Source: Candidatus Dormiibacterota bacterium
Lineage (GTDB): Bacteria > Chloroflexota > Dormibacteria > Aeolococcales > Bog-877
DNA length: 41,430 nucleotides
Assembly: GCA_027306595.1 (NCBI GenBank)
Contig: DAHUZI010000019.1
Span: 1 to 41,430 of the forward strand
Direction of reading: 5' to 3'
Shown here: positions 3,028 to 41,331 of the stretch, piece after piece
Position numbering within the stretch: position 1 is the stretch's first letter
Layout: every line of letters begins with the position of its first letter
The notes under the pieces: generated by a model
Told to the model about the DNA's origin: nothing
What the model saw: only the letters and a program-made list of their open reading frames with translations
The model's database searches: none
Made by a program: the position numbers and the translations under genes

Positions 3028-3104
3028 GCGCCCATAGCTCAGCCCGGATAGAGCACCAGACTACGGATCTGGGTGCGGGGGTTCAAATCCCTCTGGGCGC
3101 GCCA
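3028..3104 (+). tRNA. tRNA-Arg, anticodon ACG, CCA encoded
   Basis: Complete cloverleaf: acceptor GCGCCCA/TGGGCGC, anticodon stem CCAGA/TCTGG with loop CTACGGA (3061-3067, anticodon ACG at 3063-3065), T loop TTCAAAT, discriminator G at 3101 and CCA at 3102-3104. Its 3' half, from the first anticodon-loop base onward, is one arm of a 75-bp direct repeat, so it is the attachment site of the element that follows. Under the usual model the 3' half now present was brought in by the element and restores the gene. Confidence 0.95.
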
Positions 3105-3135
3105 GCGAAACCCCGGCAACCAAGCGGGTTTCTGC
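3061..3135 (+). repeat. attL: direct repeat spanning tRNA-Arg 3' half and its trailer
   Basis: 75 bp that recur at 9696-9770 with a constant offset of 6635 bp, no indels and 7 mismatches counted by eye. The repeat begins at the anticodon loop, a classical crossover position for tyrosine integrases, and runs through the T arm, the CCA end and the downstream hairpin. Confidence 0.9.
3108..3131 (+). terminator. weak hairpin after tRNA-Arg
   Basis: AAACCC (3108-3113) pairs with GGGTTT (3126-3131) around a 12-base loop, followed by CTGC. It may serve as a terminator or tRNA trailer. It lies inside the att repeat and its attR counterpart is altered (CCCGC/GCGGG). Confidence 0.35.
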
Positions 3136-3494
3136 GCAGAAGCATTAGGCGAGTGCCTAGGGCCTTGGTGGCCTTGACGCCAACTGGAGCGGCGCCCCGC
3201 GGTCCGCCACCACCCCGAGGCCCACCCGAGGCGGTTCCGTCAGCCCGGCCGGCGCCCCCACCCGTAGCCGGAGGGGGCATGAGCCCATGGGAATCAGCGG
3301 ACTCGACCGAGCCGACCGTTCGCCGAGCGGTCAGCTCGCCGCGTTCCCCCGCGACCGCGCTGTCCACGCAGCCGACTGCCGGGCGCGCCGCTGGGTCGCC
3401 CCGCCACCTGCCGGTCGCGGGCACCGGGGCATGACGGGCCGGCCTGGCGACCGTGCCGGCCTCGTGACCACCGTGCCATCCCGGACCGGGCAGT
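3132..3494. other. non-coding spacer between tRNA-Arg and eqolisin A
   Basis: No convincing gene is seen. A 45-bp block at 3208-3252 matches 9895-9939 upstream of eqolisin B at about 37 of 45 positions, including the shared run GTCAGCCCGGCCGG. The eqolisin and its upstream region were therefore duplicated together. Confidence 0.6.
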
Positions 3495-3530
3495 GGCGCC
3501 GTATAAACAAGTGGGGCGGCGCGCTCGTCG
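3495..3530 (+). promoter_or_regulatory. conserved promoter-like block of eqolisin A
   Basis: GGCGCC followed by GTATAAACAAG and a CTCGTCG end. The same block, with GTACAAGCAAG, is found at 10564-10597 before eqolisin B. TATAAA (3502-3507) is the probable -10 and leaves a leader of about 40 nt. No TTGACA-like -35 is present, so an alternative sigma factor or an activator is possible. Confidence 0.45.
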
Positions 3531-3554
3531 TCCCACCCGCGAGGAGACCCGCCC

Positions 3555-5165
3555 GTGACCCTGACCGCCCGCCGACTCCTCACCCTGGCCGCCGTGGTGG
3601 CGGTTATCCTCGGAGGCACGAGCGCTGGGCTGGCGCTCGCCGCGACCCGGACGATCCCGCCTCCCCTCCGCGTGCGACCGATGGCCCACCGCCTCGCCGC
3701 GCTCGCGCAGCCAGGGCGGGTCGCGGTGGCGCCCCGGGCGCTCTCCGGCGGGGAGCTGCCGCGCGACTGGCAAGACCACGGGACGTGGTGGCCGGCGATC
3801 GGCCAGCTGGGGACGCAGACGGCCCAGGTGGCGCTGCACCTCGGCCCCGTCGCCGGCTGGCTCCCGTGCCAGTACGGGCCGACCGGGGTCTCTGTCGTTG
3901 GCCGGCGGATGACGTACCGGTGCGCCGCGCGGCCGGGCTCGGCGGCAGGGGCGATCACCCTGGTCGCCCCGCTCGTCCAAACCGCCACCGGCTGGTGGGA
4001 GCACGCGGCCACGGACTCCCAGGCGGACCGGGCGACGTTTGCCGTCTTCCGGCGAGCGCGGCTCACCCGGGCGTCCAACGGGCGGCCGTGGTGGGTGACG
4101 CCCAACCGCGTCCTGGTCCGCATCGAACCGCCGCCGGAAACCCCCACGCTCGGACTCCGGCCCGGCTCCCAGCGGGTGCCGGCCGGCCACCCCGCGGGGC
4201 TGACCGTCACCGGCGCCCACTGGCCGGCCGGTGCCTACGCCGTGCTGTGGGACATGACGGACAACGTCGACACTACGCCAACGCCCGGGTCCTGGTGCGC
4301 GACGCCCGACTGCCAGTGGATGGTGCCGGCCTCTCCCCCAGGGACGTACGAGTTCGCCGTGTATCTCCACGCCCGCTCGGGGGCCCGGATCGCCAGTCTG
4401 CCGTCCACCGTCACGGTCACCTGGGTGGCGTCGAAGCCGGCACCGGCGCCGCCCCCGGCCGCTACCCCCACGCCACTGCCGACGCCTGTAGCGACCCCGA
4501 CAGTGACCCCGACGCCGCCTCCGCCATCATCGACGTTCGCCTACTCACCGAACTGGTCCGGCTACGTCGTGGGGAACGGCCCGTACACGGGCGCCACGGG
4601 AACGTTCGATGTTCCCAACTTGTACGCATCCTCAACCCAGGCGTGGACCGCCGAGTGGGTTGGCATCGACGGCGCGGCCTCCTCGGACTCCTCTTTGATC
4701 CAGACGGGTGTGACCGAGATCTACGACCCGAGCACCAACCTCGTGAACTTCCAGGCGTGGTGGGAGATCCTCCCCGCACCGTCGACCTCGATCAACATGG
4801 CACTGTCGCCCGGGAACGCGATGACGGCCACCGTCGACCAAGTGAGCGCTGGGATCTGGGCTCTCACCTTGACGAACGACACAACCGGTGCGGCCTTCAC
4901 GACCGAGCAGTCCTACACGGCACCGCTGTCCTCCGCCGAGTGGATCGTCGAGGCGCCAACCAATGGGGCGACTCACCAAATCGACCCTCTTGGCGACTAC
5001 ACCCCCGACGTGACCTTCACCAATGACCGGTTCAACGGGGTCCAGGCGACCTTGCAGGAGGAGATCATGGTGCAGAATGGCGCTCAAGTCTCCACTCCCT
5101 CGGACCTGTCGGCCTCCGGCAGCTTCAGTGTCGCCTACGGCAGCACCGCCCCGCCGGTTCCATAG
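3555..5165 (+). CDS. secreted G1 (eqolisin) glutamic peptidase A
   Basis: 536 aa extracellular protease. A signal peptide occupies roughly 1-29 (RRLLTLAAVVAVILGG core). An N-terminal domain at about 85-190 has paired cysteines (GWLPC, YRCAARPGSAAGAITLVAPL). An Ig-like segment at about 195-295 has a WC..PDC pair. A Pro/Thr-rich linker follows, and the C-terminal eqolisin domain starts near 325 (NWSGYVVGNGPYTGATGTF). The catalytic dyad of fungal eqolisins (Gln53/Glu136) corresponds to Gln383 in SLIQTG and Glu466 in AEWIVEAP; WVGIDG and WWEILP are also conserved. The GTG at 3555 follows GAGGAG by eight bases. It appears intact although it lies in a decayed mobile element. Acid-pH activity is expected from the family, not shown. 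Confidence 0.92.
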   Translation: MTLTARRLLTLAAVVAVILGGTSAGLALAATRTIPPPLRVRPMAHRLAALAQPGRVAVAPRALSGGELPRDWQDHGTWWPAIGQLGTQTAQVALHLGPVAGWLPCQYGPTGVSVVGRRMTYRCAARPGSAAGAITLVAPLVQTATGWWEHAATDSQADRATFAVFRRARLTRASNGRPWWVTPNRVLVRIEPPPETPTLGLRPGSQRVPAGHPAGLTVTGAHWPAGAYAVLWDMTDNVDTTPTPGSWCATPDCQWMVPASPPGTYEFAVYLHARSGARIASLPSTVTVTWVASKPAPAPPPAATPTPLPTPVATPTVTPTPPPPSSTFAYSPNWSGYVVGNGPYTGATGTFDVPNLYASSTQAWTAEWVGIDGAASSDSSLIQTGVTEIYDPSTNLVNFQAWWEILPAPSTSINMALSPGNAMTATVDQVSAGIWALTLTNDTTGAAFTTEQSYTAPLSSAEWIVEAPTNGATHQIDPLGDYTPDVTFTNDRFNGVQATLQEEIMVQNGAQVSTPSDLSASGSFSVAYGSTAPPVP

Positions 5166-5226
5166 GCGACGGGGGCCGCCCTGCCACGGGGTCATCGCAG
5201 CCGATCCATTCCTGGTGTAGGGGGAG

Positions 5227-5553
5227 TTGATCGCTCCGGACCTCGACCTGACACCGGCCGACCGCATGTACCTGGCGAAGCAACTTGTCGTGCTCCTGCG
5301 GGAGGTCGCCGCCGAGCTGAAGCAGAAAGGGTGGGACCCAGCCAATCGCCCCATCGGTGCTGATTGGCCATCCCGAGCCGTGGAGGGCGCGGAACTCCTC
5401 CGCGCCAAGCCCGGCTGCGCGGCGATCGCGCGGAGGACTCTCGTCCCTCAGCAGCGTGCGGTGGTGATCGAGCGGGCTTTGGGCCTATACCGGCCAGCCA
5501 ACGAGCACGAGGCCGACTTCGTCAAGGGGGTGGCCGAGCAGGCCCTCGCGTAG
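5227..5553 (+). CDS. hypothetical protein beside eqolisin A
   Basis: Up to 108 aa, family not recognised. The sequence looks coding (LTPADRMYLAKQLVVLLREV, then GWDPANRPIGADWPSRA) and helical at both ends, with one cysteine. A stop at 5218-5220 limits the start to TTG 5227, which has GGGGGAG directly against it (poor spacing), or ATG 5266 (MYLAKQLVVL). It follows the eqolisin by 61 bp on the same strand, but nothing similar follows eqolisin B. Probably element cargo of unknown role. Confidence 0.5.
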   Translation: MIAPDLDLTPADRMYLAKQLVVLLREVAAELKQKGWDPANRPIGADWPSRAVEGAELLRAKPGCAAIARRTLVPQQRAVVIERALGLYRPANEHEADFVKGVAEQALA

Positions 5554-5579
5554 GCTCCCGCCGCCCCCGCTCCCACGTC

Positions 5580-6351
5580 GCGGCCCGGCCGAGTCGGGCC
5601 GCGCGCCGGGATCGCCCAGGCGGAGCACGGCAGGGCATCCCGGTCCTGCCAGCGTGCGGCGATGCCGCGCATGTGCGCCTCGCCTGGTGTGTCCGCGTCC
5701 TCCCACGTCGCGATGTGAGCGAACCATTGCAGCGGGTCGAGGACGACCGCGTCCGGCACGGTCGGCAGGCAGGCCGGTGACGGTGGCGACCGCGCGGACG
5801 CCCGGCAGCGTGAGCCCGGTGACCGCGTCGGTGCCGGGCTTCCCCTCGCAGACGATGGCGGGGGTGTTGTCGGCAGACACGTCGCGCACCCGCTCCGTGC
5901 CCTCGAGCGGCAGGGCGGGGAGCGCGTTGCCGCCCAGCCCGCGCGGCCCGTCGAGCTGCTACCACCAGCAGCGCTTGGTGCCGTCGGTGTAATCCTGCCG
6001 ACCGGGCACGGCGAGGGCCCAGCCGTCGAGAATGCAGATCCGGCCAGCGCGGTGCGGGCCCGACCGGCGTGCGCCGCGGGCGCCCGTTGCGGCCCCGGGC
6101 AGGGTCGGGGGCGCGACGCGGTGCGGCATCCCACGCGCGCACGATGCGTCGAGTCGGTGCCACCACCCGGGCTGGGCGGTTCGGTCGTCACGGGGCCACG
6201 CCCCGGCGCGTTCCCCGCGGGTGCACACGGCCCGCGCACCGTCGTCGGAGCGGAAGCCGGCGCAGCGCGTTCCGGTGCCGGCTGGCCGTCCTGGGTACCC
6301 GCTGCAGATGGGGCCGGAGCGGTCGCGAGTGTAGCGGTCAGCGCCAGTCAC
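5580..6351 (-). pseudogene. Toprim/primase-like replication protein, broken
   Basis: Several minus-strand pieces join into one protein-like sequence. The first runs to KRCWW and stops at an in-frame TAG (5959-5961). The same frame resumes with QLDGPRGLGGNALPALPL and continues to VCEGKPGTDAVTG and VRAVATVTGLP. A frameshift near 5760 then leads to VPDAVVLDPLQWFAHIATWE, DADTPGEAHMRGIAARW. The EGKPGTDAV and WEDAD motifs fit the acidic motifs of a Toprim domain, as in phage or plasmid primase-like proteins. Dead gene; family assignment moderate. Confidence 0.6.
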
Positions 6352-6747
6352 GCCCGCCTCCCGGCCGGTGCCCCGTGCGGCGGGGCGAACGCTGGGGTCC
6401 GATCAGCTCGCGGGACGACCTTGGTGGTGGTCCTCCGTTGCCGCCGGCCCCGGCTCCGGCCCCGGGCCGGGGTCGGTGGCGCCGTCCTCGGGCGCCGGGC
6501 GGGGCGGGGGCGAGGAGCTGTCCCGCCAGCGGGTCCGCCGGGACGGCCGCGAGCACCCGCGCGATCCGGCCGAGGGTCGGCCCAGTGATGGGCCGCCCCG
6601 GAGCGCCTTGCTGACTGCCGCCTCGCTGGGGCCCACGACCTGGGCGAACCCCTGCTGATCAAGGCCCCGGATGGCCAACTCGACGCGGAGCGCGGCCGCG
6701 TCGAAGGCGACCGTGCCGGCGCGACGGGGCTGGGCGCTGGTGGCCAT
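6338..6747 (-). pseudogene. XRE-type HTH regulator, frameshifted
   Basis: From ATG 6747 the frame gives MATSAQPRRAGTVAFDAAAL, then a helix-turn-helix (GLDQQGFAQVVGPSEAAVSK, ALRGG). After about 6590 the proper continuation (GPTLGRIARVLAAVPADPLA) is in another frame, so a single base has been lost. In the shifted frame the protein ends at 6338. Probably the former control gene of the element. Confidence 0.6.
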
Positions 6748-6865
6748 GCCCCCAGTGGAGCAGGGCACGCCTGGTCAAAGCCGTCGGTTTCGTGTCGCGC
6801 TGTGGGATGAGAGGGTGGTGGAGGTGGAGCACGGCCAGACCCCATCGTCGGAGCGTGGCGGCCCC

Positions 6866-7084
6866 CGCGGCTGCGCGGTGGTGATCGAGGGCCGTCGGGG
6901 TGCGTATGGCACGCGGGTCCCCCAACTCATCGGCTGCGTGGCCGTGGGGGCGACCCTCACGCAGGTCCGCCGCCTCATCGCCGGAGCGATCGCGCTCCAC
7001 GTCGCGGGGATGCCTTAGGACGGGCAGCGCGTCCCCCGCCCGACGGGCGTCGCCGCGGCGATCGTGCCGGTGCCGGCGGCAACG
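6866..7084 (+). pseudogene. hicB: HicB-type antitoxin, nonsense mutation
   Basis: The frame reads CAVVIEGRRGAYGTRVPQLI, then GCVAVGATLTQVRRLIAGAI, ALHVAGMP, stop. This is the HicB partial RNase-H fold sequence, usually VVIE..GAYVPDLPGCVA followed by an HLEGLREDG tail. The TAG at 7016-7018 falls where a Glu codon is expected, and the same frame continues after it as DGQRVPRPTGVAAAIVPVPA, the usual HicB tail. No good start codon lies before the conserved part; the frame opens only from far upstream and overlaps the XRE relic. Inactive. Confidence 0.65.
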
Positions 7085-7135
7085 AACCACGCCCGGCCGG
7101 TCCGCGGGCGGCAGCCGGCGAGGCGCCTCGCTCCC

Positions 7136-7329
7136 GTGCGACCGTTCGCGCGATCATCTCCGCCCTCACCCGGGACGGGTGGGTTCATGCCGCCACCGTC
7201 GGAGAACATCGCCGGTTCCGTCACCCCGTCAAGCCGGGGCGCGTGACCGTCAGCGGGAAGCTCGGCCAGCCAGGGACGCCCGGGGCGGTCGCCAGCATCC
7301 GCCGGCAGTCTGGCCTGCGCTTGCGGTAG
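7136..7329 (+). pseudogene. hicA: HicA-type toxin, start lost
   Basis: The frame from 7141 reads TVRAIISALTRDGWVHAATV, GEHRRFRHPVKPGRVTVSGK, then a tail ending SIRRQSGLRLR and TAG at 7327-7329. This matches the small double-stranded-RNA-binding HicA fold, including the central His (GEHRRF) and the HPVKPGRVTV strand. No ATG, GTG or TTG is in frame upstream; GTG 7136 is one frame off, so a frameshift has separated start and body. It lies about 50 bp after the hicB relic, as expected for a hicBA pair. Confidence 0.65.
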
Positions 7330-7750
7330 GCTCAACGCCCGGCGGCGAGCGACCCGCCTCCCCTCCGACGGGCCCGTCGAGCGCTCCCAACAGCCACCTG
7401 CTGCGCGACGTCACGAGTGGGTCGGGCGGGTCCGGGCTCAGCGTCAGCCAGGTCCCGCAACCGGGACATGGCGCCAAGAGTTGGGCTGGCGATACCTCCA
7501 CGTCGGTCTCGCGTTGGAGACACGTCGTGCGTTCCGGCGGCCCGGCCAGCTGGTCCGACCCACAGCCCCAGGTCGCCCACGTGGCCATCAGGAGCCCGGC
7601 CAGCGCGGGCTGGTCGCGGAGCGAGGCACGCAGGGCCGGGTCGCCACGCGTCCGGACGTCGCCCTCGTGCGCTCGCAGCAGCGTGCGGATGCGGGTCGCT
7701 TGCCGATCGCTCGGCCGGGCCAGGACCCACAGCCGGCCGTTGGGCGGCGG
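7250..7750 (-). pseudogene. zinc-ribbon-like protein fragment
   Basis: The frame is open from just after the TAG at 7753-7751 that ends the HTH gene and is in the same reading frame as it. It looks coding: GRLWVLARPSDRQATRIRTL, then LRASLRDQPALAGLLMATWA, and a CPGCG motif (LLAPCPGCGTWLTLSPDPPD) like half of a zinc ribbon. The only in-frame start is ATG 7588. Either it was once part of the preceding gene and was cut off by a nonsense codon, or its own start is lost. The last part overlaps hicA on the other strand and is unlikely to be coding. Family unknown. Confidence 0.35.
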
Positions 7751-8446
7751 CTACCAGCCGAGGACGTCGCGCGCCCGTGCGCCCGGCGGGCGCGGGATGG
7801 CCACCCTCGCGCGTCGAGCCCGGTCGAGCCTCATCGCGTGCTCGAGGGCCGCGCCGACGGCGCTGTCGCCCGGTTCCCCGGGGAGGATGGTCGGGTCCAA
7901 GGCGTCATCGAGTCGAACGTCGCCGGGGCGTCCCGGCCCGGTGGCGACGATCGCGGCGGCGAGTGCGGCCCGCCGATCGGCCCCGCGCATCCGTTTGCGG
8001 TGACGCCAGTCGCGGCGCCGCCCCCAGTCCTCGGCCAACACGGCGCCCTGACGATCGAGGTCGTCGGGCGCCCGTGCCCGGTCCTCGGCCCAGCCCTTGC
8101 ACTGGCGCCAGGTGCAGCGGAGCGGGTCCCGTCGCCACGGTTCGGAAAGGTGGGGTTCGGCTGACTCCCACCAGCGCCTGTAGAGGAGGCGTGTCGGGCT
8201 CGGTGCCCGCCGGCCATCCTGGGCGGCAGCCTCGAGTCGCGTCTTCACCCAGTGGCGCTGCGCCACCACCGTCGGCGGGTACCGGTACGGAGGCTTCCGG
8301 CCCTGCCCCCGGACGCGCCGTCCGCCATCGACCAAGCCGTCCGCGATGTGCCGCTCGACGGTGCGCCAGCCGCCGAGGCCGAGCTGGACGGCGTGGTCGG
8401 CGACCTGCTGCTGGGTGAGCCATCCGCCCGCCGGGTCGTCGGCCAC
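7751..8446 (-). CDS. HTH DNA-binding protein of the integrative element
   Basis: 231 aa from GTG 8446. A helix-turn-helix near the N terminus (WLTQQQVADHAVQLGLGGWR, TVERHIADGLV, then a basic PPYRYPPTVV hinge) resembles MerR/excisionase-type winged helices. The remainder is rich in Arg, Trp and Asp and not recognised. It starts three bases after the integrase relic's stop, so the two were an operon, a position often held by excisionase or replication-control genes. The reading frame is intact, unlike its neighbours, but it may have lost a C-terminal part (see the zinc-ribbon fragment). Confidence 0.45.
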   Translation of the reverse strand: MADDPAGGWLTQQQVADHAVQLGLGGWRTVERHIADGLVDGGRRVRGQGRKPPYRYPPTVVAQRHWVKTRLEAAAQDGRRAPSPTRLLYRRWWESAEPHLSEPWRRDPLRCTWRQCKGWAEDRARAPDDLDRQGAVLAEDWGRRRDWRHRKRMRGADRRAALAAAIVATGPGRPGDVRLDDALDPTILPGEPGDSAVGAALEHAMRLDRARRARVAIPRPPGARARDVLGW

Positions 8447-8448
8447 GG

Positions 8449-9524
8449 TCAGCCGCTCGGCGGCGCTGGGGCACCCAGGGTCGCCTCGAGCGCGTCGGCG
8501 ACGGCCCGCAACGGCAGGCCGGCGTCCGCGAGATAGCTGGCGGCGCCCTGGCAGAGACTGTGGAACCGGATCGCTGGCCGGCCGTGCCGCTGGCGCGCCA
8601 ATCGGAAATGGCCGGTGGCCGCAGGCCCCAAGGGCGGCTGGCCGACGGGGGTCGTGAAGATCAGGCCCGTGCCATCCTCCCAACGTCGTCCCGCAACGAG
8701 GCGCTCCGCAGCCTGTCGCGCCCGCTGCCGGTCGCGCGCGGCGACCGCGAGGGCGGGCAGAGCCACGGCCCTGGCTGCGGCCGGTCTTGGGCTCGGCGGA
8801 GATCCAGGTGCGGCGGAGCCGTTGCAGGGTGCGGACGACGCGCAGCTCACGCCGCTCAGCGTCGTAATCGGGCCAGTGGAGCGCCAAGAGTTCGCTCTGA
8901 CGCGTCCCCGTACTCGGCGTCAGCGTCCACAGCGGGCCATCGCGATCGTCGCCCACCGCGGCGAGGAGCCGCCGCGCCTGCCCGGCGGTGAGAACCGCAG
9001 GCTCGCGGACCGGAAGGCGCGGCGGGTCGCTGAGCTGCGCCACGTTGCGCAGGAGCCTGCCGTCGCGGACGCCCGCCGCGAGGCAGGCCCGAAGAATGCT
9101 GCGGACATGCCAAGCACTCTGCGGGCTCAACCCGGCAGCGAGCGTGGCGGCGAAGAGACGGTTCACTTCGTGGCCGTCAGCTCGACGAACGGTCCCCTGC
9201 CCAGCCCGGGGAGGACGTGCGGCTCCAGGTCGGTGCGGGACCACGCCGCGGTCCGGGGCCGGAGCCGCACCGCCGCCCAGCCAGCCACTGCTTGGCATGC
9301 GCGCGGAGGGTGGGCGACCGTCCCGGGCGGGCGGCGACAGCGCCCCGGAGGCGGTCGCCGAGCGCCATGAGGAGGTTGTCCTCGGCTTCCTGGCGGGTCC
9401 GACCGTACGGGTGCCGGCGCACGAGGCGCCCGGCCTCGTCGCGGACCGAGTACCGCGCCTGCCAGCGTCCGTCACCCCGCTCGGTGACGCCACCGGTCCC
9501 GTTCGCTCGCTTGCGGCCACGCAC
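8449..9524 (-). pseudogene. tyrosine site-specific recombinase (integrase), multiply frameshifted
   Basis: GTG 9524 with GAGGAGG upstream begins an arm-type N-terminal domain (ERGDGRWQARYSVRDEAGRL, then RQEAEDNLLMALGDRL). The frame is lost near 9280. The SAM-like core and first catalytic block follow in a second frame (DGHEVNRLFAATLAAGLSPQ, TGTRQSELLALHW with the first catalytic Arg). A third frame from about 8790 carries ERLVAGRRWEDGTGLIFTTP and RFHSLCQGAASYLADAGLPL, where the conserved HxLRHG has become HSLCQG. The Tyr-containing end is missing. It cannot be functional. It sits beside attR and reads leftward into the element. Confidence 0.8.
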
Positions 9525-9695
9525 GCCCCCTCCTCGGGATGCGGCGCCGCGGGGCGCGGTCCCCCCGTCTGACGCCAACCTGAGTCCACGCCAGCGTGCC
9601 AGGGCGCGCCCTCGTGCGGGCGGCGTCGCGCCAATCGAATGCGGACGAGCCGCTGGCGAGCCGACCGGAGCAGTCGGAAGTGCCCTGTCTGCCGG

Positions 9696-9770
9696 CTACG
9701 GATCTGGGTGCAGGGGTTCAAAGCCCTCTGGGCGCGCCAGCGCGACCCCCGCAACAGAGCGGGTTTCTGC
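9696..9770 (+). repeat. attR: displaced 3' half of tRNA-Arg
   Basis: Second copy of the att repeat. It starts at the anticodon loop with no 5' half of a tRNA before it. The T stem now has A opposite C and the T loop ends in G, changes expected in a sequence no longer under selection as a tRNA. Confidence 0.88.
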
Positions 9771-10621: not shown

Positions 10622-12250
10622 GTGACCCTGACCGTCCGCCGACTCCTCGCCCTGGCCGCGGTGACGGCGGTGATCCTCGGCGGCACGAGTGCTGGGCTCG
10701 CACTCGCCGCGATCCGGACGATCCCGACTCCGCTCCGCCCGCCGCTGACGGCCCACCGCCTCACCGCACTCACGCAGCGGAGTCGGGTGGCGGAGGCCCC
10801 TCGGGCCCTCCCTGACGCGGAGTTGCCGCGCGACTGGCGGGACCACGGCTCGTGGTCGCCCGCGATCAGCCATCGGGGAGCCGCGACCACCTCCCTGGCC
10901 CTGTATCTCGGCCCCACGGCGGGCTGGCTACCCTGCACCTACGCCCCGACCGGCGTGTCGGTGACCGGGCGACCGATGACCTACCGGTGCGCCCCGCGCC
11001 CGGGTTCGGCGGCCGGGGCGATCACGCTGGTGGCGCCGCTGGTGCACAGGACCACCGGATGGTGGGAGCAGGCGGCGACCAACTCGACCAGGGACGCGGA
11101 CACATACGAGGCGTTCCGTGTAGCCACACTCACGCGCGCATCGAACGGGCGCCCGTGGTACGTGACGACCCGGCCCCAGCTCGTGCGCCTCGAGCCCCCC
11201 CCTCCGTCACCGTCGATGGCACTGAGCCTCGGACTCCGGCCGGGCTCCCAGCGGGTGCCGGCCGGCCACCCGGCGGGGCTGACCGTCACGGGCTCCGGCT
11301 GGCCGTCTGGGGCCTATGCGGAGCTCTGGGACCTGACGGACAACGTCAACACGACCCCGACGGTCAGCGACTGGTGCACGGCCCCGAACTGCCAGTGGAT
11401 GGTGCCGGCACACCGGTCGGGGGCTTACGAGTTCACCGTGTACCTCCACGCCCGCTCGGGGGCCCGGATCGCCGGTCTGTCAGCAGCCGTCACGGTTACC
11501 TGGGTGGCGTCGAGTCCGGCACCGACGCCGTCCCCGGCTTCGACCCCTACCCGGACGCCACTGCCCACGGCGGTAGCGACCCCCACGCCGGCGCCACCAC
11601 CACCATCGTCGGCGGTCGCGTCCACGCCGATCTGGTCCGGCTACGTCGTGGGGAACGGCCCGTACACGGCCGCCACCGGAACGTTCAACGTGCCTCGCCT
11701 CTACGGCGGGCCAACCGAGACGCAGGTGGCCGAGTGGGTCGGCGTCGACGGATGGAACCAGCAGTCCTTGATACAGGCCGGGATCGACGAAGTCTATGAC
11801 CCCAACGTCAGCACGACGCAGTTCCGCATCTTCGCCTGGTGGGAGGTACTGCCGGCGTATGGGACCATGCAGCCGATCGCAATGGCGATCTCCGCCGGGA
11901 ACTCCATCACGGCGACCGTGTCACAGGTCGCGCCCGGGGCTTGGGACCTGAGCGTCACCGACAACACCACGGGGACGAGCTTCACCACAGAACAGGCGTA
12001 CAGCGGCCAGGGAGTGTCCGCCGAGTGGATCGTGGAAGCGCCGACCGCGGAACCGGCCGGGACCGTCGACACGCTCGCCGAGTTCACACCGGCCGTGACG
12101 TTCACCAACGATCGCTTCAATGGAATCCAAACCTCGCTGACCGACGTCGTGATGGTGCAGAACGGCATCCAAGTCTCGACTCCCTCGATCCTGTCGGCAT
12201 CCGGCAGCTTCACGGTCGCATACGGCAGCAGCTCGCCGCCGGCCCCATAG
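10622..12250 (+). CDS. secreted G1 (eqolisin) glutamic peptidase B
   Basis: 542 aa paralogue of eqolisin A with the same plan: signal peptide (RRLLALAAVTAVILGG core), N-terminal domain with GWLPC and YRCAPRPGSAAG, Ig-like segment with a WC..PNC pair, Pro/Thr linker near 305-340, then the eqolisin domain (IWSGYVVGNGPYTAATGTF). Gln385 (SLIQAG) and Glu472 (AEWIVEAP) form the expected catalytic pair. The GTG at 10622 follows AGGAGAG by seven bases. It lies outside attR, so it is either the chromosomal homologue or cargo of a second, tandem element. Substitutions relative to A are scattered and the frame is intact, suggesting that both copies are maintained. Confidence 0.92.
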   Translation: MTLTVRRLLALAAVTAVILGGTSAGLALAAIRTIPTPLRPPLTAHRLTALTQRSRVAEAPRALPDAELPRDWRDHGSWSPAISHRGAATTSLALYLGPTAGWLPCTYAPTGVSVTGRPMTYRCAPRPGSAAGAITLVAPLVHRTTGWWEQAATNSTRDADTYEAFRVATLTRASNGRPWYVTTRPQLVRLEPPPPSPSMALSLGLRPGSQRVPAGHPAGLTVTGSGWPSGAYAELWDLTDNVNTTPTVSDWCTAPNCQWMVPAHRSGAYEFTVYLHARSGARIAGLSAAVTVTWVASSPAPTPSPASTPTRTPLPTAVATPTPAPPPPSSAVASTPIWSGYVVGNGPYTAATGTFNVPRLYGGPTETQVAEWVGVDGWNQQSLIQAGIDEVYDPNVSTTQFRIFAWWEVLPAYGTMQPIAMAISAGNSITATVSQVAPGAWDLSVTDNTTGTSFTTEQAYSGQGVSAEWIVEAPTAEPAGTVDTLAEFTPAVTFTNDRFNGIQTSLTDVVMVQNGIQVSTPSILSASGSFTVAYGSSSPPAP

Positions 12251-14219: not shown

Positions 14220-15128
14220 TCACGGCCCGGCCTCGCCGACCGCGAGCAGGGCGGCCAGATTGGCGCCAGGATGGACCTGCACCTCGAGGCGGCCGTCGAG
14301 AGCGCTCACGAGGACGGTGACCGCCAGGCCCCGGCCGGCGCGGCGACTGGCGCCGGTCGCGATCACGCCCACCGTGAGCGCCCCGGGCCGGTACCCGATC
14401 GCGAACCGGCCGTCCCAGTCGCGCACCGCGACCAGATCGCCCAATCGCAGGTGATCGAGGCCGGCCGCCGTCAGCGCCGACGGAGATGAGGTCTGGATCT
14501 CCAAGGAGGTGGTCGCGGCCAGACGGCCGGCGCCCATCCCGACCAGGTGGGGCGGGCAGACCGCCACGACACCAACCTGCAGCCGCCCGCCCGTGACCCG
14601 GGGGGCCCACGCCGCCCACAGGCGGGGACTCAGGCGGTGGCACGCCACCGATGGCGCATCCCGCACGGCGAGCCCAACCCCGACAGCGCGGACGACGACC
14701 CGATCCTCTGGGCCCAGGCGCTCGCTGACCTCCGGCGGGAAGTCGCAGAGGACGTGGGTGAACGCCTGGAACTCCTCGTGCTTGCCGGTCACCACCCCGA
14801 TCGCCCCGTCCACCGCCCCGCCCTGGATCTCCACGCGGTTGCCGACGCAGGCCTGGAGGCTGAGGTCGGCGTTGGCGGCGGGATCGGGATGGACGATGCT
14901 GACCGCCGGCTCCACCTGCTCCCCGGCCCACCCCAGCGCGGGCATGCCCACCCGGACCGCGGGCGCGATCCCCCCAATCCCGACCCCGACGAACGGGGTT
15001 CCGTCACGGTCGACGAGGTACGGGTCGCCCAGCAGCCGAACCGGCGCCACCCGTCCGGTCAGAGTGGTCCCGATCAGGCGGCCGCCGTTGGTCGCCGCGG
15101 CCCCTCCGGCGGCGGGCCCGGCCGTCAC
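14220..15128 (-). CDS. DUF4438 family protein (copy b)
   Basis: 302 aa. The family is defined by structural-genomics proteins such as Thermotoga TM1086, and its biochemical role is not established to my knowledge. Seen here: a GVGIGGIAPAVRVGMPALGW block, EQVEPAVSIVHPD, NRVEIQGGAVDGAIGVVTGK and VTVLVSALDGRLEV. The GTG start at 15128 overlaps the stop of copy a as GTGA, so translation is probably coupled. It is the last gene of the minus-strand run SBP1 - Gfo1 - SDR - DUF4438a - DUF4438b. The two copies align along their length but are clearly diverged, suggesting two subunits of one complex rather than redundancy. Confidence 0.8.
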   Translation of the reverse strand: MTAGPAAGGAAATNGGRLIGTTLTGRVAPVRLLGDPYLVDRDGTPFVGVGIGGIAPAVRVGMPALGWAGEQVEPAVSIVHPDPAANADLSLQACVGNRVEIQGGAVDGAIGVVTGKHEEFQAFTHVLCDFPPEVSERLGPEDRVVVRAVGVGLAVRDAPSVACHRLSPRLWAAWAPRVTGGRLQVGVVAVCPPHLVGMGAGRLAATTSLEIQTSSPSALTAAGLDHLRLGDLVAVRDWDGRFAIGYRPGALTVGVIATGASRRAGRGLAVTVLVSALDGRLEVQVHPGANLAALLAVGEAGP

Positions 15129-16000
15129 GGGCGCACCCCGCAGGCGGTGGAGATGGAGAGGCCGGCCTCCACCCACCATCCCAGCCGGTCGGCGGGTCCG
15201 GTGAGGACCGTCACCACGCCCACGCCGTGCCCGGGAACCGGACCGAGCGCATGCACGACGACCCCGACCGAGGCCCAGCCCCGCGCGTATCCGCGGCCAA
15301 ACCGGTGGTCCTGGTCGACCATCGCCACCAGATCGCCGATCCGAAGCTCGGCCAGGCGGTGGGCACCCCGAAGGACCGGGTCGTGGAGCATGACGTCGCA
15401 GTTGGCCCATTCCGAGCTCATGCCCAATCCCGCCCCCATGAGCTCCGGCGGGACCACCCCGACGACCCCGACCTCGAGCCGGCCCGGACCGGAGCGGTGC
15501 GACAGCCCCGCAAGCAGCCCCGGGCTGCAGTTGCGCACCGCGATATCTGGATGGTCGAGCAGGCGCAGCCCCTGCCCCTCGGCCTCCACGACCACCGAGT
15601 CTCCGGGCACCAGCTGCTCCAGGGCCTCGGGCTCGAAGTCGCAGAGCACGTAGGCGTGCTTGCCGATCACGGTTCCGGTCGCGCCCGCGGCCCGGCCCGA
15701 CGCCACCCGCACCGGGTTCCCGAGGCAGGCCAGGACCTGGACCGCCAGGTGCTGAGCGCTGTCCCGGCTCCCGAGCGAGGCGCCCGGCTCGCCATGGTCC
15801 GCCGCCCACCCGAAGACCGGACTGCCCAGGCGCAGATTGCGGCAGACACCGGCCATGCCCGGCAGCGCCACCGGGCGATCCCACCAGTCGACCGCGAGGT
15901 GCCCGCGGTGCACCGGATGGACGATCTCAGCCGCGCAGCGCACCCGCACGAGGCGATCGCGATTGGTGCGGAGCTCGTCGGGGGGCTCAGTTCGCGGCAT
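15125..16000 (-). CDS. DUF4438 family protein (copy a)
   Basis: 291 aa from ATG 16000. It has the same block order as copy b: PGMAGVCRNLRLGSPVFGWA, ADHGEPGASLGSRD, NPVRVASGRAAGATGTVIGK, HAYVLCDFEPEALEQLVPGD and a final VTVLTGPADRLGWWVEAGL. The GWA.DH.EPG motif is characteristic of the family. It starts 92 bp after the SDR stop and overlaps copy b by four bases. No signal peptide, so cytoplasmic. Function unknown; the context implies processing of whatever SBP1 binds. Confidence 0.8.
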   Translation of the reverse strand: MPRTEPPDELRTNRDRLVRVRCAAEIVHPVHRGHLAVDWWDRPVALPGMAGVCRNLRLGSPVFGWAADHGEPGASLGSRDSAQHLAVQVLACLGNPVRVASGRAAGATGTVIGKHAYVLCDFEPEALEQLVPGDSVVVEAEGQGLRLLDHPDIAVRNCSPGLLAGLSHRSGPGRLEVGVVGVVPPELMGAGLGMSSEWANCDVMLHDPVLRGAHRLAELRIGDLVAMVDQDHRFGRGYARGWASVGVVVHALGPVPGHGVGVVTVLTGPADRLGWWVEAGLSISTACGVRP

Positions 16001-37194: not shown

Positions 37195-37949
37195 TTGCCA
37201 GCCGCCGCGCATTCCCTCGATCGCGCCCGAGCCGACCGACGGTGGGCCGCAGCCCGGGCGCGCGCAGCGACCCTTCTCGGGATCGCAGCGGCGATGGCGA
37301 TCGCCGCGCCCGGGCGGGCCGCGGCCCCCACCCGCGTGATCAGCAGCGTCCCCTCCGTCGCCCAGCCGTGCGTCCTCGACTGCGAGACCGCCGCCCTCCA
37401 GATGGCGCTCGCCCACGAGGGGGGCCACGTGACCCGGGCGACCCTGCTCAGCCGGGAGCGGGTCAGCCCGGCGCCGCCCGGGCTCGCTGGGGCCTGGACC
37501 GTCCGCCGGGGCGACCCGTCCACGCGCGTTGTCGGCAGCGTCCACGGACCGGCGGCCCATCCCCCGACCGGGTACGGGCCCCACGCCCCCGGCATCGCCC
37601 GGGGCGCTCGGGCGGTTGGCGGCGACGGCCTCTGGTCGGGAACCGGCCTCGCCCTGACCCGGCTCGAGCCGCGGTCCGGGCCGGCCACCCGGTCGTGGTC
37701 CGGCTGACCGTGGTCGGGGCCACCGGGGAGCTGGTCACCCCGTCGATGAGCCGCTGGCGCGCCGGGGACGGCCGAGTCGGGCCGTGCCCCATCGGCGGAG
37801 GCGAGCACGCGGCCACGGTGGTCGGAGGGCGCCCGGAGACCCTCCTCCTGCACGAGCCCGAACCCCGGGCGGGGCCACGGAGGGGGTCGCGGGCAGCGCT
37901 CGCCGGGGCGTTCGCCTCCTGCCACGGCACGGCGGTGGAGCTTCGATGA
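37195..37949 (+). pseudogene. secreted C39-family cysteine peptidase-like protein, frameshifted
   Basis: The first frame (from about TTG 37195) has a signal peptide (ATLLGIAAAMAIAAPGRAAA), then SVPSVAQPCVLDCETAALQM with the catalytic Cys position, and GDPSTRVVGSVHGPAAHPPT, GYGPHAPGIARGAR. It stops at 37707. The second frame carries the expected rest: AAVRAGHPVVVRLTVVGATG, then GGGEHAATVVGG with the catalytic His, ending at 37949. One base (a G in GAGGCC) appears lost near 37668. The layout matches the Peptidase_C39_2 type found as exported proteins. The stop overlaps the start of eqolisin C as ATGA, so the two were an operon. It could be a sequencing error. Confidence 0.6.
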
Positions 37950-39415
37950 CGGCGAGCCCCACCGGCCGTGCCGGCCCGCGCCGCCTGGCCGCAGGGCTGG
38001 CGGTGCTGTGGACGCTGGGCGCCGGCTCGGCCGCGGCGGCGGCCGCCCCGGCCCCCGCGCCGGCCGCGAGCGTCGCCGTCGGGACCGAGATGGCGCCCGT
38101 GCGCCCCACCACGCTCGACCTTCGGCTCGGGCCCACAGCCGGCTGGCTCACCTGCCACTACGCGCCAGCCGGCATCTCGGTCGGGGGCCGTCCGATGACC
38201 TACCGCTGCGCTGCGCGCCCCGGGTCGGCCGCCGGCGCCATCACCCTCATCGCCCCACTGGTCCACACGGCCAGCGGCTGGCGCGAGACGGCCGCGACCA
38301 ACTCCCACACCGACCGGTCGACCTACGCCGTCTTCGCCCGTGCGACCCTGCGTCGGGCCTCCAACGGCGCCGCCTGGTGGGTGACCCCAGGGCGGGTCGT
38401 GGTGCGGCCCCAGGCGGCGCCCGCCCTCAGGCTCCGGCCCTTGGTGCAGCGGATCGCGCTCCACCATCCCGCCGGCCTCACGGTGACCGGCTCGGCCTGG
38501 CCGCAGGGCGCCTACGCGGTGCTCTGGACCGCGGCCGGCCCCAGAAGCCGGCTCGCCGCGCCCGGCCATCGGTGCACGAGCCCCGGCTGCCAGTGGATGG
38601 TCCAGGCCCCGCCCGGCCCGGCCACGGTGCGCTACTCGGTCGTCCTGCACGATCGCAGCGGCGCGAGGATCGCCCAGCTCGCCCAGGCGGTCGTCGTCAC
38701 CTGGTCCAGCGCCCCCACTCCGACCCCGGCCCCGGGGCCCGCCACCGGTCTCGCCCCGCTTCCGGTCCTGGCGGCGACGACCCGCCAGAGCGCGAACTGG
38801 GCCGGCTACGACGTCGAGGCCGGCCCCTACACCGCCGTCACCGGGACCTTCACCGTCCCGGTCATGGCCCCGGCCGCGGGCGAGGCCGCGGTCTCGGCCT
38901 GGGTCGGGATCGACGGGGCCACCGACGGGGACGCCGCCCTGATCCAGGCAGGCGTCGCCCTCGTCACGAACCCCGACATGGGCACGCCCACGGTGTCGGT
39001 GGTTCCCTGGTGGGAGGTCCTCCCAGCACCGGCGACGCCGATCACGACCCTCACGGTCCGGCCCGGGGACCGGGTCACCGTCCAGCTCGCCCAGGTCACC
39101 GCCGCCACCTGGCGGATCACCCTCGCCGACGACACGGCCGGCCGGAGCTTCTCGATCACCCAGCCATACAGCGCCCAGCTGGCCTCGGCGGAATGGATCG
39201 TCGAGGCCCCCTTCGACGGCAACACGCAGCAGATCGTCGCCCTCGGCCCCTACCGCCCCGCGGTCCGATTCTCCAATCTGCAGGTGGCGGGCGCGAGCCG
39301 CCAGCTCACCCGCGACGTGATGGTCCAGCGCGGGGCCGCGGTCTCGACCCCCTCGACGCTCTCCGCCTCCGGCTTCCAGGTCGCCTACGGGGCGGCCGCC
39401 CCAACCGCGCCGTAG
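37946..39415 (+). CDS. secreted G1 (eqolisin) glutamic peptidase C
   Basis: 489 aa from ATG 37946 with GGTGGAG five bases upstream. The signal peptide is LAAGLAVLWTLGAGSAAA. It has the same architecture as A and B but a shorter N terminus: GWLTCHYAPAGISVGGRPMT, YRCAARPGSAAGAITLIAPL, Ig-like segment with HRCTSPGCQWMV, a short Pro-rich linker (TPTPAPGPAT), then the eqolisin domain (ANWAGYDVEAGPYTAVTGTF). Gln334 (ALIQAG) and Glu420 (AEWIVEAP) supply the catalytic dyad; WVGIDG and WWEVLP are kept. It overlaps a C39-type peptidase gene upstream. It is not at the tRNA-Arg locus, so it may represent the resident copy from which, or to which, the mobile copies relate. Confidence 0.9.
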   Translation: MTASPTGRAGPRRLAAGLAVLWTLGAGSAAAAAAPAPAPAASVAVGTEMAPVRPTTLDLRLGPTAGWLTCHYAPAGISVGGRPMTYRCAARPGSAAGAITLIAPLVHTASGWRETAATNSHTDRSTYAVFARATLRRASNGAAWWVTPGRVVVRPQAAPALRLRPLVQRIALHHPAGLTVTGSAWPQGAYAVLWTAAGPRSRLAAPGHRCTSPGCQWMVQAPPGPATVRYSVVLHDRSGARIAQLAQAVVVTWSSAPTPTPAPGPATGLAPLPVLAATTRQSANWAGYDVEAGPYTAVTGTFTVPVMAPAAGEAAVSAWVGIDGATDGDAALIQAGVALVTNPDMGTPTVSVVPWWEVLPAPATPITTLTVRPGDRVTVQLAQVTAATWRITLADDTAGRSFSITQPYSAQLASAEWIVEAPFDGNTQQIVALGPYRPAVRFSNLQVAGASRQLTRDVMVQRGAAVSTPSTLSASGFQVAYGAAAPTAP

Positions 39416-40299
39416 CCGGCGGCCCGGGCCGCCGGCCGCGCTCGTGCCCCAGAGGCCCTGCAGCGCCATGGGCGATCACGGACGCCGGGGCCACCCGCGG
39501 CCCTGAACGGAGCCCCGGCCCGGGGATGCGGGTGCGCCGCCGGCCCCCTGGTCCGCCGCGGCGATCGGCGACGCGATGCGGTCGGCCGGAGCGCGGCCGG
39601 CTCCGACCGCCGTCGTCGCGGGGGCGGTCGGGGCGGTCGCGATCCTGGGGTGCGGCGCTCCGCGCCTGGCCGGCCCGGAGCGCCGACGACCCTTGCGGCC
39701 TGGCTGGCCTCTCCCGGCCGCCGCCCTCAGCTTCCTCGTGCGCCGCCGGGCGCCGACCGCCCCCCGAGTCCACGCGGCCGTCGCGATGGCCACCCCCGTC
39801 GCCTCCACCGCCGAGCGGCTGGGGCCGGCGGAGCCGGTCGCCGTCGCCGCCCTCTCCGTCCTGCCGACGCCTGACGCCGCCGTCGGCGTCACCCTCGCGT
39901 GGCTCGGCGCCGCCGACCCTGGGCGCCCCGTCCTCCACGGGTCGAGCCGGACCCTGCAGCGGCCGCGCGCTGAGCGCCAGGCAGCGGACCGGCCTGCACG
40001 CGGTTGGGGAGCGGCCGCGGTCGCCCGGGTCGAGGGGGGCACGACGGGAACCCACCCCCGTCACCGTGCGGCCGCCCGCCGCGCCACCCGGGCGCCAGGG
40101 GGCCGGGTGCCAGGGGGCCGGGCCCCGGTCGGTCGGCGTCCGGCGCCCCAGCCGACCGGCCGACCGGCCGACGTCACCAACTCGGCGGACCTGGATGCCG
40201 GCACGGCGTTGCCCGCCATCAGCCCGGTGCGCAGCTGTCACGGAACGGCGACGCCACCGGAACGTCCCGCCGGTCGGCGGCGAGCACAATCGGGCGCAC
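39416..40299. other. long GC-rich interval, no certain gene
   Basis: Frame 3 from ATG 39576 looks weakly coding to about 40000: a hydrophobic stretch TAVVAGAVGAVAILG, then AAVAMATPVASTAERLGPAE and AVAALSVLPTPDAAVGVTLA with GC-rich third positions. That frame never closes, so the reading proves little. It may be a decayed exported protein. Nothing else is recognisable; CCAGGGGGCCGGG is repeated in tandem near 40095-40120. Confidence 0.3.
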
Positions 40300-41331
40300 A
40301 TGGAGCGAGCCGCCCCGTCCGCACCGGTGTCGGGGCGTCGATCCTGGTGGTCGACCACGGCCATCGGCGACGAGATCCTGTCCGCCGAGGAGCGGCCGGC
40401 CCCAGTCGCCGCCATCATGGCGGCGGTCGCGGCGATCGCGATCGGAGGCGTCCTGCCGTTCCGGCCGTGGCCGACGCACACCGCCATCGAGCTGGGCGGG
40501 CTGGCGGGCCTCTCGGCAGCCATCTCGGTCAGCTTCCTTCTGGTCCGCCACCCGCCCGCGGGGTGGCTGCTCCGCGCGGCCGCGGCGGTTGGCACCCTCG
40601 TCGTCACCACCGCCCAGCTCCTGGGGCGGGCCGAGCACGTCAACTTCGCCGCCCTCTACATCCTGGTGGGGCTGTACGCGGCGGTCTACTTCACCCCCAC
40701 CTGGCTTTTCGCCGAGCTCACCTGGATCGGCGCCGCCTACGGTGGGCTCCTCGTCCTCGACGGCTCAAGCCCGGGCGCCGCGGTGGTCGCCTGGCTGGCG
40801 GTGGTGGGCACCGCGGTGGTGGCCAGCGCCCTGGTGGGGGTGCTGGTCCACGAGCTCCGGGCGCGGGCCCTCCTCGACCCGCTCACCGGCCTGCCCAACC
40901 GACGAATGTGGACGCTTCGGCTCGAGGACGAGGTCGCCCGGGCGGCGCGGACCGGGCGCCCGCTCGCGGTCGCCTTGCTCGACCTCGACCACTTCAAGCA
41001 GCTCAACGATCGCCTCGGACACCGGGCTGGCGACCGCGCGCTGGTCGACTTGGGGTCCGCCTGGCGGACCGCCGTGCGCCGGGGCGGGGACCTCATGGCC
41101 CGGATCGGCGGCGACGAGTTCGCCGTGCTGGCCCCGGACACGGATGCCCCAGCCCTGGACACGCTGATCCGGCGCCTGCGGGCCCGTGCCCCCGACCACC
41201 TGCACTTCTCGGCGGGGCTGATCACATGGGACGGGCAGGAGTCCCCGCCCGCGCTGCTCCACCGCGCCGACCTGGCGATGCTGGCGACCAAGGCACCGGA
41301 CCGGACCGCGCGCACCGGCGCGGCGCCCTAG
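40300..41331 (+). CDS. membrane diguanylate cyclase (GGDEF)
   Basis: 343 aa. About six transmembrane segments fill residues 40-185 (AAIMAAVAAIAIGGVL, GLAGLSAAISVSFLLV, AAAAVGTLVVTTAQLL, AALYILVGLYAAVYF, LTWIGAAYGGLLVL, AWLAVVGTAVVASALVGVLV). A GGDEF domain follows: DPLTGLPNRRMW, LLDLDHFKQLNDRLGHRAGD, then RGGDLMARIGGDEFAVL. The catalytic GGDEF is intact at about 270-274, and an inhibitory RxxD site lies exactly five residues before it, so product feedback is expected. It makes cyclic di-GMP from two GTP. The membrane part is not a recognised sensor. ATG 40300; no EAL domain. Confidence 0.92.
   Translation: MERAAPSAPVSGRRSWWSTTAIGDEILSAEERPAPVAAIMAAVAAIAIGGVLPFRPWPTHTAIELGGLAGLSAAISVSFLLVRHPPAGWLLRAAAAVGTLVVTTAQLLGRAEHVNFAALYILVGLYAAVYFTPTWLFAELTWIGAAYGGLLVLDGSSPGAAVVAWLAVVGTAVVASALVGVLVHELRARALLDPLTGLPNRRMWTLRLEDEVARAARTGRPLAVALLDLDHFKQLNDRLGHRAGDRALVDLGSAWRTAVRRGGDLMARIGGDEFAVLAPDTDAPALDTLIRRLRARAPDHLHFSAGLITWDGQESPPALLHRADLAMLATKAPDRTARTGAAP

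Follow-up and report, generated by a model that had tools for sequence, protein, structure and literature searches.

By profile searches, the three eqolisins encoded in the window (the whole 41,430-nucleotide stretch of Candidatus Dormiibacterota DNA analyzed here) carry a previously undescribed accessory module, D1-D2, which appears restricted to one genus and is attached to the catalytic domain of a known enzyme family.

Three modular glutamic peptidases

Each of the three proteins (eqolisins 1-3; Table 1) scores 85-106 bits in a search with the Pfam Peptidase_A4 profile (PF01828), far above its curated cut-off of 22.3 bits, which confirms the three eqolisins announced by a sequence-only reading of this DNA. 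The Gln/Glu dyad aligns with that of aspergilloglutamic peptidase and is kept in four of four module proteins (the three window copies and the homologue described below). In Foldseek, a model of the protein matches scytalidoglutamic peptidase 2ifr (E 6e-9, TM-score by target 0.61) and, more weakly, neprosin (E 2e-5), and the catalytic domain is modelled, at low to moderate confidence, as the seven-plus-seven-stranded beta-sandwich that characterizes G1 enzymes. Profile, dyad and fold are thus those of the G1/PF01828 peptidases (scytalidoglutamic and aspergilloglutamic peptidases and the bacterial pepG1 of Alicyclobacillus; MEROPS G1), and the window catalytic domains are devoid of cysteine, just as bacterial G1 members are without the conserved fungal cysteines (PMC3009609). 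We conclude that, by sequence, the three proteins are G1 glutamic peptidases (eqolisins, PF01828) with an intact catalytic dyad, built in the order signal peptide, D1-D2, linker, catalytic domain, and predicted to be secreted, modular, acid-type endopeptidases.

The N-terminal region common to the three eqolisins spans ~200 residues, as had been claimed, and comprises D1 (~104 aa; its two Cys are 18 positions apart) and D2 (~95 aa, with a Cys pair arranged as CxxxxC), followed by a Pro/Thr linker and the catalytic domain. Relative to the copy in eqolisin 1, D1-D2 is 74% identical in eqolisin 2 and 63% identical in eqolisin 3. When the four module proteins are aligned, the four module cysteines are invariant and constitute the only cysteines of each protein, and the invariant residues of D1 include Trp, Tyr and Asn as well as Cys. 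The P/S/T-rich linkers are variable, ranging from 27 to 56 aa. A relation of D1 and D2 as tandem Ig copies was not supported by hhalign (probability 0.4%), which detected none. The R-rich segment following the signal peptide is absent from eqolisin 3, whose best start is ATG 37946, within an ORF open from 37784.

Table 1. Coordinates of the eqolisins, their domains and neighbouring elements in the window
Feature	Position	Strand	Details
tRNA-Arg(ACG)	3028..3104	+	likely attachment site, 450 bp upstream of eqolisin 1
Eqolisin 1	3555..5165	+	536 aa from a GTG start closely preceded by an AGGAG-type ribosome site; signal peptide ~aa 1-30, then R-rich N-segment aa 31-91
D1 of eqolisin 1	3828..4139	+	aa 92-195; Cys105 and Cys123; net charge ~+7 at pH 7
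D2 of eqolisin 1	4140..4427	+	predicted Ig-like; aa 196-291; Cys248 and Cys253
Linker of eqolisin 1	4425..4541	+	Pro/Thr/Ser-rich; 39 aa, 67% P/S/T
G1 catalytic domain of eqolisin 1	4542..5162	+	dyad Gln383 (4701-4703), Glu466 (4950-4952)
Phage-type integrase	8488..8995	-	two collinear frame-shifted fragments, E 0.001 and 0.02, below family cut-off; between the tRNA-Arg repeats
Repeat of tRNA-Arg 3' end and following bases	9696..9770	+	91% over 75 bp; 0.9 kb upstream of eqolisin 2
Eqolisin 2	10622..12250	+	542 aa; tandem duplicate of eqolisin 1
D1-D2 of eqolisin 2	~10895-11509		
Catalytic domain of eqolisin 2	from ~11621		dyad Gln385/Glu472
Eqolisin 3	37946..39415	+	489 aa, counted from ATG 37946
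D1-D2 of eqolisin 3	~38114-38704		
Catalytic domain of eqolisin 3	from ~38786		dyad Gln334/Glu420

The three paralogues on which the sequence-only reading had drawn are real, but they are less independent than that count suggests, as eqolisins 1 and 2 are tandem duplicates (73% identity over 1.76 kb of DNA, upstream sequence included). The partial copy of the tRNA-Arg(ACG) 3' end lies 6.6 kb downstream of the tRNA itself, and past eqolisin 1 the DNA between the two repeats has little coding signal apart from the integrase fragments. The likely history of this region would be a decayed integrative element at tRNA-Arg, with eqolisin duplication. A weak match to a HicB-like antitoxin was also seen between the repeats (window 3028-9770). 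Also in the window are ClpP-like genes (called from reading the sequence, not from a profile) and trigger-factor genes, as well as genes for solute-binding proteins of family 5 (three) and for DUF4438 proteins (two); the latter correspond to two adjacent gene copies, with minus-strand ORFs (14220-15884 and 15125-16000) that overlap in different frames and each give a full DUF4438 match. A direct repeat of ~400 bp (39549-39948 and 40348-40771, 68% identity) is located downstream of eqolisin 3.

Distribution of the module and related eqolisins

Profile searches with D1-D2 alone revealed no family in Pfam, NCBIfam or PHROGs and no relatives among PDB sequences, plasmids or viral contigs, in line with the earlier description of the module as undescribed. 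Known carbohydrate-binding modules with a Pfam or NCBIfam profile did not match D1-D2, nor did D2 match any Pfam profile, including He_PIG, Big, PKD and FN3, and Pfam searched at E up to 10 returned two chance names only and no pro-domain, neprosin-type included. Matches to antibody light chains across the D1/D2 junction (PDB sequences, E 0.06) were set aside as chance or a generic Ig signal.

Besides the three window copies, the D1-D2 profile recovered a single further copy, which lies in the one additional genome that represented the genus in the search, and the known module sequences number four, from two genomes. Nothing else credible was found among 151 relatives, nor, beyond the genus, among 400 genomes drawn across the phylum; the remaining matches in the latter (E 0.002-0.007 per genome) were rejected, the alignments of three looking chance-like and the rest being judged on score alone. 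D1 searched alone against the 18 genomes of the family gave the same distribution, the other matches being weak and none credible. A scan of GTDB contigs with two short peptide patterns, which distant relatives outside the phylum could escape, returned the same homologue, on DAHUZL010000135.1 from a MAG of Candidatus Dormiibacterota, with 74% identity across 200 residues (E 8e-96). The motif YRCAxRPGSAAGAIT, by which the sequence-only reading had described the first domain, is present in the window copies but altered in this sole other homologue (YQCAALPGSAAGAIT). The sister-genome protein (L079:5731-7389, also L062) retains the Gln/Glu dyad and has WWT where the window copies have WWE, possibly reflecting a changed substrate cleft.

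The genome encodes a fourth eqolisin, on contig C14, that is without D1-D2. Since this protein and many related eqolisins are without the module, the catalytic domain does not need it. In a catalytic-domain tree, the module proteins fall within a 16-member clade drawn from the family or order (support 100/100), in which large non-catalytic extensions are found, one protein being cut by the contig end. The members outside the genus bear large N-terminal parts of different make-up, ~115-residue repeats (DTR...LNVT...GYF) and He_PIG Ig domains being the kinds seen. Three such repeats (ALxPxRxxDTR...LNVT...GYF), in some cases followed by He_PIG Ig domains, occur in L041, L042, L044, L047, L049, L051, L057 and L060, and gave no Pfam match in those scanned. 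Another eqolisin of the same order (L043:2453-4300) has C-terminal repeats like those of a beta-propeller lectin (NCBIfam NF052348, E 2.9e-18, below the curated cut-off). These multi-domain Dormiibacterota eqolisins resemble the module proteins in catalytic clade (L044, L047, L051) or order (L043), in being secreted and in having a large accessory part, but their DTR...GYF repeats, He_PIG domains or lectin-like repeats are by profile unrelated to D1-D2.

Described eqolisins have preprosegments of ~55 aa (PMC6154417), compared with ~280-345 aa, D1-D2 included, preceding the catalytic domain in the module eqolisins. The contrast with the short fungal propeptide drawn in the sequence-only reading is thus correct, but a large N-terminal extension is not peculiar to these proteins, the enclosing catalytic clade having extensions of other domains; a more telling comparison is offered by relatives from the same bacterial family, where different accessory modules fill this position. 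From these sequence comparisons, it is most likely that the eqolisins of this phylum are modular with interchangeable accessory domains, D1-D2 being the variant of this genus. Movement of the module between catalytic domains was also considered, a first tree having grouped eqolisin 3 with a repeat-type eqolisin (support 98/89), but in a tree with cleaner domain limits a single clade of module proteins is not rejected (p-AU 0.31), compatible with one origin.

Constraint on D1 and predicted structure

Identity in D1 ranges from 67 to 83%, against 45-68% in the catalytic domain, and is the higher of the two in six of six pairs; pN/pS in D1 is 0.24-0.42, and D2 is about as conserved as the catalytic domain. 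By this measure D1 is the most constrained part of the protein, and because its conservation exceeds that of the catalytic domain throughout, we take it to be functional. Its slower divergence suggests a function that is specific and constrained, and speaks against a passive spacer as well as against a propeptide of the ordinary, fast-evolving type.

AlphaFold2, in two runs with an alignment of only four sequences, gave Ig-like strands for D2 (pLDDT block means mostly 54-80), whereas D1 was modelled at a pLDDT of ~25. The catalytic domain, whose fold is known, also came out poorly in the same run (~25-75 by block, most blocks 35-59), so the low value for D1 is not evidence of disorder and may stem from the shallow alignment. 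Compared with known structures, the moderate-confidence D2 model matched many Ig/FN3/PKD-like structures, all of them at E values worse than 0.001, and D2 is predicted, with moderate confidence, to be Ig-like. A charge-hydropathy test placed D1 on the folded side, but did the same for the Pro/Thr linker and cannot discriminate here. The notion of a structured module, advanced from the letters of the sequence, therefore agrees with the model in the case of D2, while for D1 it draws on conservation.

Targeting, inhibition or spacing

We give about even chances to the reading that D1-D2 is a retained accessory module targeting or tethering the enzyme, with D1 as the specific part. The module would stay on the enzyme and tether it to an extracellular target, which may be a polymer of the wall or matrix or else a polymeric substrate. 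D1 would be the putative ligand-binding part and D2 a spacer of Ig-like type, while the catalytic domain, on its flexible linker, could sample protein around the tether. P/S/T-rich linkers of variable length are usual between the binding and catalytic domains of secreted enzymes. Such a role is favoured because D1-D2 sits where sister eqolisins have other accessory domains. Against it stand the lack of a match to any known binding-module family, a sequence that suggests no ligand, the pLDDT of ~25 for D1, a record limited to four sequences from two genomes and a combination of basic D1 with acidic catalytic domain that would equally fit an intramolecular pro-domain. The sequence-only reading had left the module either binding substrate or cell wall or keeping the zymogen inactive; the domain context of the relatives favours the former, and charge complementarity keeps the latter in play.

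The zymogen alternative, which we judge unlikely though worth weighing, holds that D1, alone or together with D2, acts as a pro-domain: basic D1 would block the acidic catalytic domain at neutral pH until acid separates the two and the linker is cleaved, as happens in pro-neprosin. The pro-domain of neprosin, a glutamate-class prolyl endopeptidase, is ~104 aa long, all-beta, with one disulfide and a pI of 9.5 against 4.3 for the catalytic domain, and its release is pH-triggered (PMC9343461). D1 likewise is a basic N-terminal part of ~100 aa with one Cys pair ahead of an acidic catalytic beta-sandwich, with pI values of 9.9-11.4 for D1 and 4.1-4.4 for the catalytic domain in four of four proteins, and Foldseek sets the latter near both scytalidoglutamic peptidase and neprosin. 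Eqolisin prosegments are themselves rich in positively charged residues (PMC6154417). The two systems differ in that there is no sequence match, the cysteines are spaced 18 residues apart here and 46 in neprosin, and the dyad is Gln/Glu rather than the Glu/Glu of neprosin. Moreover, D2 intervenes, and the linker is long, variable and Pro/Thr-rich, unlike the docked linker of neprosin, and has no Lys/Arg conserved across the four proteins, hence no plug. Other eqolisins of this clade are acidic (-8 to -16) over the 300 residues that precede the catalytic domain, indicating that the clade needs no basic pro-domain there, and the charge of D1 lies at or just above the maximum of 105-aa windows in the neighbouring solute-binding proteins (+4 to +6). 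No Pfam pro-domain was matched, and D1 diverges more slowly than the catalytic domain, the reverse of what pro-domains usually do. That D1 might be, by analogy, a prokaryotic counterpart of the neprosin pro-domain unrelated in sequence, a small one-Cys-pair domain acting as an electrostatic, pH-released inhibitor or chaperone, seems to us decidedly doubtful.

It is also improbable that D1-D2 serves as a structural spacer or stabilizer that keeps the protease off the cell surface or protects it and has no specific ligand. The generically Ig-like D2 model and the comparably bulky or bulkier repeats and Ig domains that sister eqolisins bear in the same position would suit such a role, but D1 exceeds the catalytic domain in conservation, which would not be expected of a passive spacer, and has invariant Trp, Tyr, Asn and Cys residues. 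A spacer may possibly describe D2 alone, given its conservation close to that of the catalytic domain, and fits D1 badly. Finally, although extended open frames often occur in several frames at such GC content and D1 was not modelled, the idea that the N-terminal region merely reflects chance or the composition of very GC-rich DNA, with no real domain, is scarcely credible in view of the homologue in another genome and a reading frame shared with the signal peptide and catalytic domain, and is refuted by purifying selection on D1.

The role of G1 peptidases in bacteria was stated to be unknown in the pepG1 paper of 2010 (PMC3009609), as was the zymogen structure of the eqolisin archetype SCP-B in the neprosin paper (PMC9343461). 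A constrained, genus-restricted module offers a direct handle on what it binds, or whether it inhibits.
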